A DNA stretch of 57,351 nt. It comes from Erythrobacter sp. (GTDB lineage Bacteria > Pseudomonadota > Alphaproteobacteria > Sphingomonadales > Sphingomonadaceae). Shown here one piece after another: positions 6,221 to 38,184 of the stretch. The position numbers and the translations under genes were made by a program. Positions within the stretch are counted from its first letter, which is position 1. Every line of letters starts with the position of its first letter. The stretch spans positions 1-57,351 of the forward strand of contig PNJY01000006.1 in the NCBI GenBank assembly GCA_013822125.1, written 5' to 3'. The notes beneath the pieces were generated by a model. That model did no database searches. It was not told the DNA's origin and saw nothing but the letters and a program-made list of their open reading frames with translations.

Positions 6221-7362
6221 TTCCCGTCGAATTGGCAGGGCGAAGTTATCAGGTCCATGTCGGGCGCGGCCTGTTGGATGACGCGGCCAGGCTCACCTCC
6301 ACCTTCCTGCGCCGCAAGCAAGTGCCGGTGGTTGCTGACGCCAACGCCTGGGCCGCACACGGCGAACGGCTGGCGCGCTCGCTTGCCGATGCGGGGCACG
6401 AACTGGCGTTATATGAGGTTCCGCCGGGCGAAGGCTCCAAGAGCTGGCAAGAGCTCGAACATTTGTGCGACTGGCTGCTGGCGCAGGGAGTCGATCGCGG
6501 CGATCATGTGCTGGCGCTGGGCGGCGGGGTGGTCGGCGATCTCACCGGATTTGCCTGCGCGGTGCTCAAGCGCGGCTGCGGCTTCGTGCAATTACCCACC
6601 ACGCTGCTGGCGCAGGTCGACAGTTCGGTCGGCGGCAAGACCGCGATCAACACCGCCGCGGGCAAGAACCTGATCGGGGCCTTCCACCAACCGTCGCTGG
6701 TGCTGGCCGACCTTACCGCGCTCGATACGCTGCCGACGCGTGAAATGCGCGCGGGCTATGCCGAAGTGCTCAAATACGGCGTGCTGGGCGATGCCGAATT
6801 CTTCGACTGGCTGGAGACCAATGGCGAAGCAGTGCTGGTGCGCGAGCCCGAGCCGCTCGAGCATGCGGTGGCGATCAGCATTGCCGCCAAGGCGCGGATC
6901 GTCGCCGAGGACGAGCGCGAGACGTCGGGCCGCCGCGCGCTGCTCAACCTTGGGCACACATTCGGCCATGCGCTGGAGGCTGAGACGGGATTTTCGGACA
7001 GATTGCTGCACGGCGAGGGCGTGGCGCTGGGGATGGTGCTGGCGGCGCACTATTCGGCGCGGCTAGGGCTGATTGCACAGGGCGATGCCGAACGCGTCGA
7101 GCGCGCGATCGCGGCGGTGGGCTTGCCTTCTCGGCTATCGGCACTCGGGCTTGGCTGCGACGGTTCGCGCCTTGTCGGTCACATGCTCCACGACAAGAAG
7201 ATGGATGGCAACATGTTGCCCTTCGTCCTGCTCAGGAACATCGGCGAGGCGTTCCTGGCCCGCGACGTCGATCTGGCCGATGTCGCCGCCTTTCTCGACG
7301 GGCAACTTGCGGCAGGCTCGTATGACCCGGTTTATCGACCCGTCGTTCCCGACCGCCAATGA
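6211..7362 (+). CDS. aroB: 3-dehydroquinate synthase
   Basis: 383 residues. It converts DAHP to 3-dehydroquinate using NAD and a divalent metal, the second step of the shikimate pathway. The NAD-binding and active-site region has [14 protein letters not shown], then [21 protein letters not shown]. Metal ligands are seen in the Glu of GYAEVLKYG and the histidines of [12 protein letters not shown] and [10 protein letters not shown]. Translation starts 10 bases before the end of aroK, so the pair is coupled. The gene ends 12 bases from the end of the converging pccA. Confidence 0.97.
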
Positions 7363-35194: not shown

Positions 35195-36448
35195 TCAGCT
35201 CAGCCGGTCGCGGAAATCCTCGTACCCGAAACTTTTGACCTGTTCGAGAGCGTCGCTGTCGCTGTCCCACAGCCAGATCGAAGGCAGCGGCACACCGTTG
35301 AAAGTGTTGGTTTTGACCATCGAATAATGTGCCTGATCGAGAAAGGCGATCCGCTGCCCCGGCTCAGCTGGCACCGGCAGGCGGTAATCGCCGATAACAT
35401 CGCCCGCAAGACAGGAAGGGCCGCCCAAGCGGACGGGAGCCCCTGCGAAGGCAGGGGCCTCAGGCGATGAAGCGCCAGCGTCACTGAGGTCCCAGCCTTC
35501 GCTGGGACTCGCGGGAAGCTCGCCCTCCGAAAGCTCCCCCAGCATCGCAGGGCGATAGGGTGCCTCGATCACGTCGGGCATGTGGCAGGTGGCGGAAATA
35601 TCGGTCACCGCCACCGGCATGCCGTTCCAATGCGAATCGAGAACCGTGCCAACGAGGATGCCCGCGTCTAGCGCCACCGCCTCGCCCGGTTCGAGGTAGA
35701 TTTCCGCACCGGAATCCTCGGCCGCATCGCGCAGGAACTCGACCAGTTCCTCGCGCTGGTAATCGGCGCGGGTGATGTGGTGTCCACCGCCCATGTTAAT
35801 CCATTTGAGCTGACCGAACGCGGGTTCGATCGCGTCGAACACGCGGTCCCATGTCTGCCGGAGCGGCTCAAGGTCCTGTTCGCACAGATTGTGGAAATGC
35901 ACGCCATCGACCAGTTCCAACACCTCGGGCGTCAGCTGGTCGAGCGGGAAGCCGAGGCGGCTGCCGGGGCTGGAGGGGTCATAACGCGCCACTTCGCCGG
36001 TCGGCACTTGCGGGTTGAGCCTGAGGCCGATGTCGAAATGCTGGCCCGCCGCGCGCGCCGCCTCGAGGATCGGTGCGAAGCGCGCGATCTGCCCCGGCGA
36101 ATTGAAGATGATGTGATCGGACAGGCGGCAGATTTCCGCAAGATCGTCGGGCTTGTAAGCGGCGCAATAGGTGGCGATCTCGCCATCGTAGAATTCGGAG
36201 GCGAGCCGCGCCTCCCACAGGCCCGAAGTGCACACCCCGTCGAGATATTCGCCGATGATCGGGGCGACCGACCACATGGAGAACGCCTTCAGGGCAGCGA
36301 GCACCTTGATTCCCGCCGCGTCGCGAATATCGGCCAGCACCTGGCAATTGGCGCGCAGCTTGGCCGCATCGACCACGAATGCGGGGCTGTCGACCCGGTT
36401 GAGGTCGAAATGGGCGAAGGCGCCCGGATCGCCGGCTTTGGTTTGCAT
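35195..36448 (-). CDS. nspC: Carboxynorspermidine/carboxyspermidine decarboxylase with in-frame repeat insertion
   Basis: 417 residues, PLP enzyme of the alanine-racemase fold. The PLP lysine lies in VLAALKAFSMWSV. INMGGGHHITR and YLEPGEAVAL are further family motifs, as are TDISATCHMPDVIEAPYRP and the C-terminal DQAHYSMVKTNTFNG. It decarboxylates carboxyspermidine to spermidine. Residues about 313-337 (PSEGWDL ... APAFAG) are encoded by a palindromic repeat placed between MLGELSEG and VRLGGPSCLAGD, that is, just before the conserved catalytic-Cys region, with no loss of frame. The gene is separated from its partner dehydrogenase gene by a 480-bp element. Confidence 0.93.
   Translation of the reverse strand: MQTKAGDPGAFAHFDLNRVDSPAFVVDAAKLRANCQVLADIRDAAGIKVLAALKAFSMWSVAPIIGEYLDGVCTSGLWEARLASEFYDGEIATYCAAYKPDDLAEICRLSDHIIFNSPGQIARFAPILEAARAAGQHFDIGLRLNPQVPTGEVARYDPSSPGSRLGFPLDQLTPEVLELVDGVHFHNLCEQDLEPLRQTWDRVFDAIEPAFGQLKWINMGGGHHITRADYQREELVEFLRDAAEDSGAEIYLEPGEAVALDAGILVGTVLDSHWNGMPVAVTDISATCHMPDVIEAPYRPAMLGELSEGELPASPSEGWDLSDAGASSPEAPAFAGAPVRLGGPSCLAGDVIGDYRLPVPAEPGQRIAFLDQAHYSMVKTNTFNGVPLPSIWLWDSDSDALEQVKSFGYEDFRDRLS
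35437..35510. repeat. Palindromic repeat (CCAGC-cttc-GCTGG family) inside nspC
   Basis: About 74 bases with hairpins GCCCCTGC-gaag-GCAGGGGC and TCCCAGC-cttc-GCTGGGA; close match to 11725-11797 in the mutase gene, same orientation and same frame. Confidence 0.88.
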
Positions 36449-36470
36449 TTGTGACGTTTTGCCTTTTCTG

Positions 36471-36509
36471 GGTTCACGCAGAGATCGCGGAGGAAAGGAG
36501 GCCGCAAAG
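36471..36509 (+). repeat. Left terminal inverted repeat of the GxxExxY element
   Basis: Starts GGTTCACGCAGAG and continues with AGGAAAGGAGGCCGCAAAG. Matches the reverse complement of 36912-36950 at 32 of 39 positions. Confidence 0.75.
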
Positions 36510-36513
36510 AGAT

Positions 36514-36900
36514 TTATGTGGCAATGTGATTGTTGACCATGCGACGAATGCCTTCCTTCATTGTCGCACCCGAGAAATTGAGAAGCAGGCCTACGGGCTG
36601 CTTCATCAATCTCAAATAAGTAAGTAGCTGTTTTGCATGTGCCTTACTGAGCGTCTCTACGGCCTTGATCTCAAGGATTAGGCTATTTTCAACCAGAATA
36701 TCCAACTTGAACGCATTCTCGAAAAGATGGCCATCGAAAGTGATTGGGACCGGCACTTGCCGCGCTACCTTAAGCCCTCGTGATTCAAGACGCCCTGCCA
36801 GGACAATTTCGTAAACATTTTCAAACAGTCCGGGTCCCAGCTCGCGATGAATGCGGATTGCTTCGTCAATAACAATGCCGCTGATATCATCGCTACGCAT
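36514..36900 (-). CDS. GxxExxY protein (PD-(D/E)xK nuclease-like, PDDEXK_3)
   Basis: 128 residues from the ATG at 36900 (an in-frame GTG at 36912 is possible and would start inside the terminal repeat). The name-giving motif is GPGLFENVYE. Further on, KLDILVENSLILEIKAVE gives the D...ExK pattern of the PD-(D/E)xK nuclease superfamily, and the family's C-terminal QLLTYLRLMKQPVGLLLNF is present. The family's function is unknown. It is on the same strand as the polyamine genes around it but has a different, less GC-rich character (GGCTATTTTC, AATCTCAAATAAG), which suggests acquisition. The whole gene lies between inverted repeats. Confidence 0.88.
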   Translation of the reverse strand: MRSDDISGIVIDEAIRIHRELGPGLFENVYEIVLAGRLESRGLKVARQVPVPITFDGHLFENAFKLDILVENSLILEIKAVETLSKAHAKQLLTYLRLMKQPVGLLLNFSGATMKEGIRRMVNNHIAT

Positions 36901-36911
36901 CCGCTCGTCCA

Positions 36912-36950
36912 CTCTGCGAACTCTTTTCCTCTGCGCACTCTGCGTGAACC
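36912..36950 (-). repeat. Right terminal inverted repeat of the GxxExxY element
   Basis: Plus-strand sequence ends CTCTGCGCACTCTGCGTGAACC. It contains three CTCTGCG units (36912, 36929 and 36938) and lies 7 bases downstream of the dehydrogenase stop codon. Confidence 0.75.
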
Positions 36951-36957
36951 AAAAAGC

Positions 36958-38184
36958 TCAAAATTCCACCGGCCCGCCCAGCTCCTCCACGGTCCATGGC
37001 AGGCCATGCGCATTGAGCATGTCCATGAACGGATCTGGGTCCATCTGTTCGACGTTGAACACGCCGCCACCCCCGTTTGGGCCGCTCCATTTGCCGGTCA
37101 CCACCATCGCCGCGCCGATCATCGCCGGGACGCCTGTGGTATAGCTCACCGCCTGATTGCCGGTTTCCTCGTAAGCTGCCTCGTGCGAACAGATATTCCT
37201 GATATAGAACGTCTTCTCGCCCGATCCGTCAAGCGACTCGCCGGTGGCGATACAGCCGATATTGGTGTTGCCTTTGGTCGTTTCTCCCAGCGTTTCGGGC
37301 TTGGGTAGTACGGCGGCGAGGAATTGCAGCGGGATGATGTCGCGGCCCTGATATTTGACCGGCTCGATGCTGGTCATGCCGACATTCTGCAGCACAGTGA
37401 GATGGGTGATGTACTGGTCGCCAAAGGTCATCCAGAAGCGTGCCCGTTCCAGCTCCGGCACGAATTTGGCGAGGCTTTCCAGCTCCTCGTGATACATCAG
37501 GTACATGTTCTTCGGGCCAACGGCCTCGAAGTCGAACTCGACCCGGTTCGACATCGCCGGGGTTTCTACCCATTCACCGTTTTCCCAATGCCGCGCGGGC
37601 GCGGTCACTTCGCGAATGTTGATTTCAGGATTGAAATTGGTGGCGAAATGCTGGCCGTGGTCGCCGCCGTTGCAATCGAGAATGTCGAGCTGGCGGATGG
37701 TTTTCAGCTTGTGCTTCTTTAGCCACATCGTGAAAATACTGGTCACGCCCGGATCGAAGCCCGAACCGAGCAGCGCCATGATCCCCGCATCCTTGAAGCG
37801 GTCATGATAGGCCCACTGCCATGAGTATTCGAACTTCGCCTGATCCTTGGGCTCGTAATTGGCGGTGTCGAGATAGTTGACCCCGGCGACGAGGCAGGCA
37901 TCCATGATCGGCAAGTCCTGATAGGGCAGCGCAAGGTTGACCACGAGGCTGGGCTGAACCTTGCGGATCAGATTGACCATCGCCGGAACTTCCTCGGCGT
38001 CGATTTCGTAAGTAGCCACGTCCACGCCGGTGCGCGCCTTCACGCTGGCGGCGATGGCATCGCATTTGCTCTTCGTCCGGCTGGCGAGGTGGATATCGGA
38101 AAATATCTGATTCTGCAGCTGAGCCATCTTGTGGACGCAGACCGAGCTGACGCCGCCGGCACCGATTACCAGAACTGTAGACAT
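36958..38184 (-). CDS. Carboxynorspermidine/carboxyspermidine dehydrogenase (saccharopine dehydrogenase family)
   Basis: 408 residues. The N-terminal Rossmann motif is VLVIGAGGVSSVCVHKMA. Family segments include HLASRTKSKCDAIA, VNLALPYQDLPIMDACL, YLDTANYEP, GSGFDPGVT and ILDCNGGDHG. It reductively joins aspartate semialdehyde and putrescine to give carboxyspermidine, which NspC decarboxylates to spermidine. The order dehydrogenase - (element) - nspC - ornithine decarboxylase on one strand covers the whole route from ornithine. The substrate (putrescine vs diaminopropane) cannot be settled from sequence. Confidence 0.92.
   Translation of the reverse strand: MSTVLVIGAGGVSSVCVHKMAQLQNQIFSDIHLASRTKSKCDAIAASVKARTGVDVATYEIDAEEVPAMVNLIRKVQPSLVVNLALPYQDLPIMDACLVAGVNYLDTANYEPKDQAKFEYSWQWAYHDRFKDAGIMALLGSGFDPGVTSIFTMWLKKHKLKTIRQLDILDCNGGDHGQHFATNFNPEINIREVTAPARHWENGEWVETPAMSNRVEFDFEAVGPKNMYLMYHEELESLAKFVPELERARFWMTFGDQYITHLTVLQNVGMTSIEPVKYQGRDIIPLQFLAAVLPKPETLGETTKGNTNIGCIATGESLDGSGEKTFYIRNICSHEAAYEETGNQAVSYTTGVPAMIGAAMVVTGKWSGPNGGGGVFNVEQMDPDPFMDMLNAHGLPWTVEELGGPVEF

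Follow-up and report, generated by a model that had tools for sequence, protein, structure and literature searches.

What is a lone gene of the GxxExxY family doing between two polyamine genes of an Erythrobacter genome, and do the repeats on either side of it belong to it? We know of no function or activity assigned to this family, whose name is taken from a motif only. A sequence-only reading of the window (the whole stretch of 57,351 nucleotides analyzed here) had described a small element with inverted-repeat ends and had proposed that the gene and its ends move as one unit. The open-access literature yielded no paper on end arrays, mobility or gene-less copies of GxxExxY genes; array strings (15-16 bases) and the combination of MITE with PDDEXK turned up there only in unrelated contexts.

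The element and its gene

We confirmed that the element in the window is a GxxExxY (TIGR04256/PDDEXK_3) gene enclosed by inverted ends (Table 1). Its arms are 44 nt long and 80% complementary, making up the longest inverted repeat within 36350-37100, and the best local match between the two flanks of the locus scores 22. The 13-mer that sets the limits lies at 36471-36483, with its reverse complement at 36938-36950, and the direct sub-repeat CTCTGCGNACTCT is found at the locus. The inverted ends, the CTCTGCG sub-repeats within them and the spacings of 7 and 22 bases to the neighboring genes had all been described correctly. When the window was scanned for at least three strictly spaced units, a rule below which the element's own arms scored for having one wider gap, one other run appeared, at 6885-6909, and it is chance-like.

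Table 1. Coordinates of the element, its parts and the adjoining genes
Feature	Position	Strand	Basis or remarks
Whole element	36471..36950		Runs from the 13-mer GGTTCACGCAGAG to its exact reverse complement; further basis is an empty allele, in which the synthase stop overlaps the nspC start, in 10 of the 70 genomes of the genus
End array downstream of gene	36466..36509		CGCAGAG, CGCGGAG, CGCAAAG (plus-strand reading); inverted repeat
End array upstream of gene	36912..36955		CGCAGAG, CGCAGAG, CGCAGAG (minus-strand reading); inverted repeat
GxxExxY / PDDEXK_3 protein gene	36514..36912	-	Listed with a GTG start, the likely one being ATG at 36900; profiles and structure model
Carboxynorspermidine synthase-like gene, upstream neighbor	36958..38184	-	NF043000, 383 bits (cut-off 800)
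nspC-like carboxynorspermidine decarboxylase gene, downstream neighbor	35195..36448	-	TIGR01047, 373 bits (cut-off 409)

The enclosed protein is a full member of its family by profile match, scoring 129.5 bits against TIGR04256 (curated cut-off 35) and 132 bits against PF13366 (curated cut-off 22). It has the D...ExK residues that the earlier reading had pointed out, as D71, E81 and K83. The ATG start agrees better with the start of its relatives than does the listed GTG. For both neighboring genes the best models score below their equivalog cut-offs. Inside nspC, at about 35436-35515 of the window, palindromic repeats make up an in-frame insert of roughly 25 residues that is missing in the 11 relatives aligned.

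The AlphaFold2 model of the protein is confident (pLDDT 90.7, pTM 0.84), and its predicted fold is the core fold of PD-(D/E)XK enzymes, complete with the D and ExK residues. Foldseek gave no match to the model at E 0.001 or better, the top hit being 4ic1 (SSO0001), which we take to be a Cas4, at E 0.004; a second structure comparison placed 4ic1 first (Z 9.4), followed by 3ijm (8.3), 7esz (8.3), and BamHI and Hjc (6.7). No relative of solved structure was found by sequence at E up to 1. Among 123 family proteins D71 is present in all, E81 and K83 each in 121, and Q95, Y99, G108, N112 and F113 in all 123. The active site is near-invariant, and therefore catalysis by the predicted nuclease seems to be under selection.

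Other origins for the gene and its ends were considered and rejected. A viral or phage source found no relative in IMG/VR (short peptide patterns) or among GenBank phages (tblastn), and PHROG gave no match to the protein at E 0.1. A defence role was set aside when PADLOC returned only weak Cas4-type matches and one DRT-nuclease match, the best at E 0.0005, which we read as a shared fold. The ends as terminator or promoter were likewise dismissed: nothing terminator-like was found in 36300-37100, where the plus strand has a single promoter-like site.

End arrays across the family

Matches to GxxExxY were found in 58 of 299 genomes sampled from the window's phylum and in 101 of 198 sampled from the phylum of a Flavobacterium. 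From 130 loci with a domain hit, 128 were full-length, 123 had distinct domains and 121 entered the flank comparison; L041 and L043, at contig edges, were left out, and truncated L019 and frame-broken L126 never entered. Matched inverted ends (score at least 16) occur in 88 of these 121 distinct loci, chiefly from Proteobacteria and Bacteroidota, a set that is not a random sample because only fetched matches, mostly the highest-scoring, were analyzed. The median upstream-versus-downstream match was 20. The same score was reached by 69 of 1441 cross-paired flanks, none of 1210 shuffled flanks and 1 of 119 flanks displaced by about 400-600 nt further out.

By group, matched ends were found at 15/15 loci of the same genus, 24/25 in other Alphaproteobacteria (order level or nearer) together with named alphaproteobacterial records, 2/3 in the same class, 26/41 in the same phylum, 21/35 in Bacteroidota, and 0/2 in the Fusobacteria and Treponema records. 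These last two are among the 18 of 121 loci with neither matched ends nor two adjacent units on both sides. A separate scan of 17 loci from the window's own genome and its relatives found an inverted 30-mer with at least 24 matches between the flanks in 16; for the exception, L005, the scan chose another place (20/30), and its ends are visible, scoring 16.5 in the 121-locus comparison.

The ends are arrays of 7-nt units (CGCAGAG, CACAAAG, CGCCAAG, CACGGAT and others; consensus C[AGT]CN[AG]A[GTA]) spaced 8-10 nt apart. Adjacent units stood at 8, 9 and 10 nt in 108, 129 and 65 cases, compared with 24 in total for displaced flanks, and at least three units were present in 161 of 242 arms versus 12 of 242 displaced flanks. 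The unit varies among loci, and the two ends of one locus are usually alike. It had been anticipated that flanks of other GxxExxY genes would carry CTCTGCG ends. Matched ends are indeed there, similar at the 88 loci, but there is not one fixed CTCTGCG; the unit differs from locus to locus. A frame-broken GxxExxY gene of Gemmatirosa kalamazoonensis (Gemmatimonadota; L126) is flanked by complete CGCAGAG palindromes (L126:1813-1896 and 2398-2483), each of them a hairpin by itself.

We compared the divergence of the ends with that of the protein. The cross-locus end match is about 8 at protein identity below 40%, 22 at 80-90%, and 18.7 at 90% or more (nine pairs). In a tree of 43 genes, mostly from Sphingomonadales, unit types broadly track clades; L010 and L011, both of whose ends are mainly CGGAG, have as tree neighbor the window gene, whose ends are mainly CAGAG. 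The locus's own downstream end was strictly the best partner of its upstream end in 39 of 121 cases and first or tied in 45, the strict figure being this low because related loci have a common unit type. This co-divergence fits one protein recognizing both ends, and common descent alone would be expected to produce some of this association of ends with protein.

Gene-less array pairs

We searched 61 genomes for a strict array pattern. Matches outside the gene loci (hand-taken counts) had a median of 4 in the 10 genomes with the gene and 0 in the 51 without (p 9e-6); 50 of the gene-free genomes, leaving aside G025, together gave 22 matches versus 21 for a backward control pattern (hand sum). 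Among the matches are 28 close inverted pairs of 61-221 bp that enclose no GxxExxY gene and have the unit types seen at gene ends. Four gene-holding genomes (G001, G013, G023 and G055) account for 24 of these, and G025 and G049, which have no such gene, for the other four. In 25 of the 28, the two arms agree in the type of their first unit; permuting arms within genomes gave an expectation of 17.7 same-type pairs, with 1 of 20000 permutations as high as 25. Pairs may be nested, a CCAAG-type inside a CGGAG-type at L242 and an ACGAAG-type inside a CAGAG-type at L271. One array locus (L262; G012:C1:1518900-1520300) has three matches exactly 200 bp apart, a tandem repeat containing an array element.

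By a raw hand tally, 15 of the 24 pairs located in genomes with the gene agree in type with a gene resident there. In G013, a genome only 74% complete, no resident gene corresponds in type to the CCAAG pairs. The idea that the gene-less copies are internal deletions of gene-bearing ones was ruled out, as their interiors are unrelated to GxxExxY genes: compared with all the genes, they gave one 14-nt match (E 0.01).

One gene-less site, L258, could be followed across relatives; a site search matched in 74 genomes, and alignment of both flanks succeeded for 28 of 30 loci. In 3 of these 28 genomes the site carries array elements, of CCAAG and CACAAAG types, in 6 it is empty (15 nt), and in 19 it has other, unrelated-looking inserts of 40-319 nt; such sites therefore take several kinds of short element. 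Over the whole set (L347-L376), different short inserts are found in 22 of the 28 genomes, and several kinds of small element come and go.

These data bear most directly on the main rival explanation, that the inverted array pair is itself mobile, through another enzyme or through host replication and repair, and that the GxxExxY gene either rides along as a passenger or is a selfish helper directed at another target. It would account for the three gene-less pairs in G025, a 100% complete genome with no GxxExxY gene detected, for the inserts of other kinds at the L258 site, for interiors not derived from the gene, and for the frame-broken Gemmatirosa gene between two complete palindromic pairs. 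Against it, end unit types track gene clades, end similarity tracks protein identity, and array matches are enriched in gene-holding genomes. We consider it an unlikely account, and the most serious of those we weigh against our own.

Short non-coding copies with inverted ends of the coding element's type, as in MITEs, are thus present. Like insertion sequences and MITEs, of which Chunjie of Geobacter is an example, the element is a short unit with inverted ends and many short non-coding copies, at intergenic sites and with insertion into an operon (PMC10969869). Inverted ends surround the gene as in an insertion sequence; unlike in that class, the sole gene here matches only TIGR04256 and PF13366 and encodes a PDDEXK_3 nuclease, with no gene of a known transposase family inside, the ends are arrays of a 7-nt unit that diversifies between copies, and no target duplication was evident at the two sites compared. 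REP/RAYT systems likewise link short palindromic repeats between genes to a single enzyme gene, domesticated or mobile. The present system differs in that its ends are not palindromes of their own but pair with one another, and in that the enzyme, of PD-(D/E)XK fold, is a PDDEXK_3 protein and not a Y1 (HUH) transposase.

Genomic setting and transcripts

Where long ORFs were present on both sides (112 of 123 loci), the longest of them were co-directional with the gene in 86, an estimate based on ORF length. Five annotated records from a plasmid collection likewise have the gene co-directional with both neighbors, for example between fabD and fabG or after radA. Preferential insertion in such a setting and survival only there would look alike.

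This orientation would suit an element that acts at the RNA level, like the intervening sequences of 23S rRNA, its arms pairing in the transcript and its presence tolerated since host ribonucleases excise it. The transcript does fold with the arms paired (z -5.9 versus shuffles); this fold is expected from the repeat itself, because arms this long pair in any single strand. Moreover, 9 of the 28 gene-less pairs lie between divergent ORFs (left minus, right plus), Rfam has no family matching 36300-37100, and the spread of the element is left unexplained. We regard an RNA-level element as improbable. The 23S rRNA intervening sequences have inverted ends too. Those with an S23 gene share with our element a length of about 430-500 nt, one small gene and a selfish character (PMC4990558). 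The present element differs in lying outside rRNA, between two protein genes, and in carrying a gene of another family.

Gain and loss at defined sites

The junction of the window was compared in 70 of 74 genomes with a synthase hit. In 11 of these 70 same-genus genomes the element lies 3' of the synthase gene, within about 20 nt of its stop codon; in 10 the synthase stop overlaps the nspC start by a 4-nt stop/start overlap, which is the empty site whose existence between these two genes had been put forward as a check; and in the remainder other genes or spacers follow the synthase. On the synthase tree the 11 filled rows need 10 changes (shuffled-label mean 10.4), and well-supported branches force at least 5 of these. 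The element is patchy at this junction, its changes no fewer than with shuffled labels.

The gene tree, which includes 9 of the 11 filled genomes, separates their elements by a 99/97 branch: seven belong to the main clade, and outside it lie L006 and L013, whose ends are of GCGAAG type; therefore the junction was entered at least twice. Two Novosphingobium genomes have the element between the same two genes, and part of its distribution at the junction may therefore be vertical. The earlier reading held that its proposal would fail if all relatives had the gene here by vertical inheritance. Neither this outcome nor the other one it had named, flanks of other GxxExxY genes devoid of such ends, was found. 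The junction is patchy rather than uniformly filled, yet part of the history may be vertical.

At a second site, after korB, we compared 13 genomes. The site is filled in 2 and empty in 8, where the gap is 0-56 nt; a gap of 186 nt was found in one and of 816 nt in another, and G012, in which korB is split, is without the element. With empty sites at two junctions, the proposal that gene and ends move together is borne out as joint gain and loss: the gene and its arrays are very probably one unit of gain and loss. Neither a target-site duplication nor a precise point of insertion could be made out at the synthase/nspC junction or the L258 site.

Homing would be another route to repeated filling, the nuclease cutting the empty allele and the element being copied in by repair from the filled one. 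PD-(D/E)XK homing enzymes exist, the same junctions have been filled repeatedly, and clean empty alleles are present; against this, copies and gene-less pairs lie at many unrelated sites, and matched end arrays have no role in homing, which we rate a shade below the RNA-level element in probability. That the gene is an ordinary one, passed on vertically and flanked by sites for regulatory binding, as the single clade of most copies at the window's junction and the two Novosphingobium genomes might suggest, is already disfavored by the 4-nt overlap of the empty sites, the second clade at the same junction and the gene-less and nested pairs, and is the least probable reading of all.

A possible mechanism

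On balance we favor a minimal mobile element with MITE-like derivatives, in which the nuclease acts on its own end arrays and drives movement and the gene-less pairs follow. The element consists of one small predicted PD-(D/E)XK nuclease gene with an inverted array on either side, in which a 7-nt unit recurs every 8-10 nt. The nuclease would bind both ends through units of its own array type, join the ends, and cut or nick at the outer edges of the arrays; host replication or repair might then put the released or copied element elsewhere, landing mostly between co-directional genes, where little harm would be done. Gene-less pairs would be MITE-like derivatives that a nuclease with matching specificity moves in trans. 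If one protein recognizes both ends, the ends of a copy would stay alike while lineages diverge. Several results weigh against this reading: the lack of an evident target-site duplication, the 18 loci with no matched ends or adjacent units, the gene-less pairs of G025 and the CCAAG-type pairs of G013 with no fitting resident gene, and interiors that do not derive from the gene. That the nuclease is the mover of the element is what we infer.

Tn7 TnsA and the Rpn recombination-promoting nucleases are other PD-(D/E)XK enzymes linked to DNA mobility. Unlike the element here, TnsA works with a DDE partner, and neither TnsA nor Rpn is known to have array ends.

Other lone-gene families

Two further families of lone small genes were compared. 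Genes of the TIGR02436 four helix bundle type, presumably the S23 family, have matched inverted arrays at 11 of 30 loci in Bacteroidota (L273-L302), versus 11 of 870 cross-paired flanks. Their units, AGTATCAAG, GTACCAAGTAC and GCTATTAGCT, differ from the GxxExxY type; possibly these loci follow the same plan with another gene and code. No paper on arrays of the TIGR02436 type was found in the open-access literature.

Lone DUF559 (PF04480) genes of Sphingomonadales (L303-L332) have matched ends at 15 of 23 loci, versus 77 of 506 cross-paired flanks; L319 and L322 were left out, and 5 of 28 loci were skipped as short. These ends are of the CCCTCCCGCTTGCGGGAGGGG...GGGTGGGC kind and differ between loci. 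The window's own genome has nine DUF559 matches. On its contig C54 (L002/L261), a lone DUF559 gene that has GC-rich repeats of its own is directly preceded by a short gene-less element of GCAGAG type, about 85 bp long.

What the element means for the family

Tying the gene to matched, lineage-specific arrays gives a testable role to a common family named only from a motif, and accounts for its patchy distribution and for its position between the genes of operons. The many natural pairs of nuclease and site are on offer for decoding recognition. If the nuclease does move the element, this would be a transposable element whose only enzyme is of a new type. More tentatively, and short of an even chance in our judgment, it could represent a new class of autonomous transposable element, spread over at least three bacterial phyla, whose only enzyme is a PD-(D/E)XK nuclease reading iterated end codes; code and enzyme would co-diversify into independent subfamilies, several per genome, each with its gene-less followers. 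That class may extend to other lone small genes, such as TIGR02436 and DUF559, that share this layout and use different codes.
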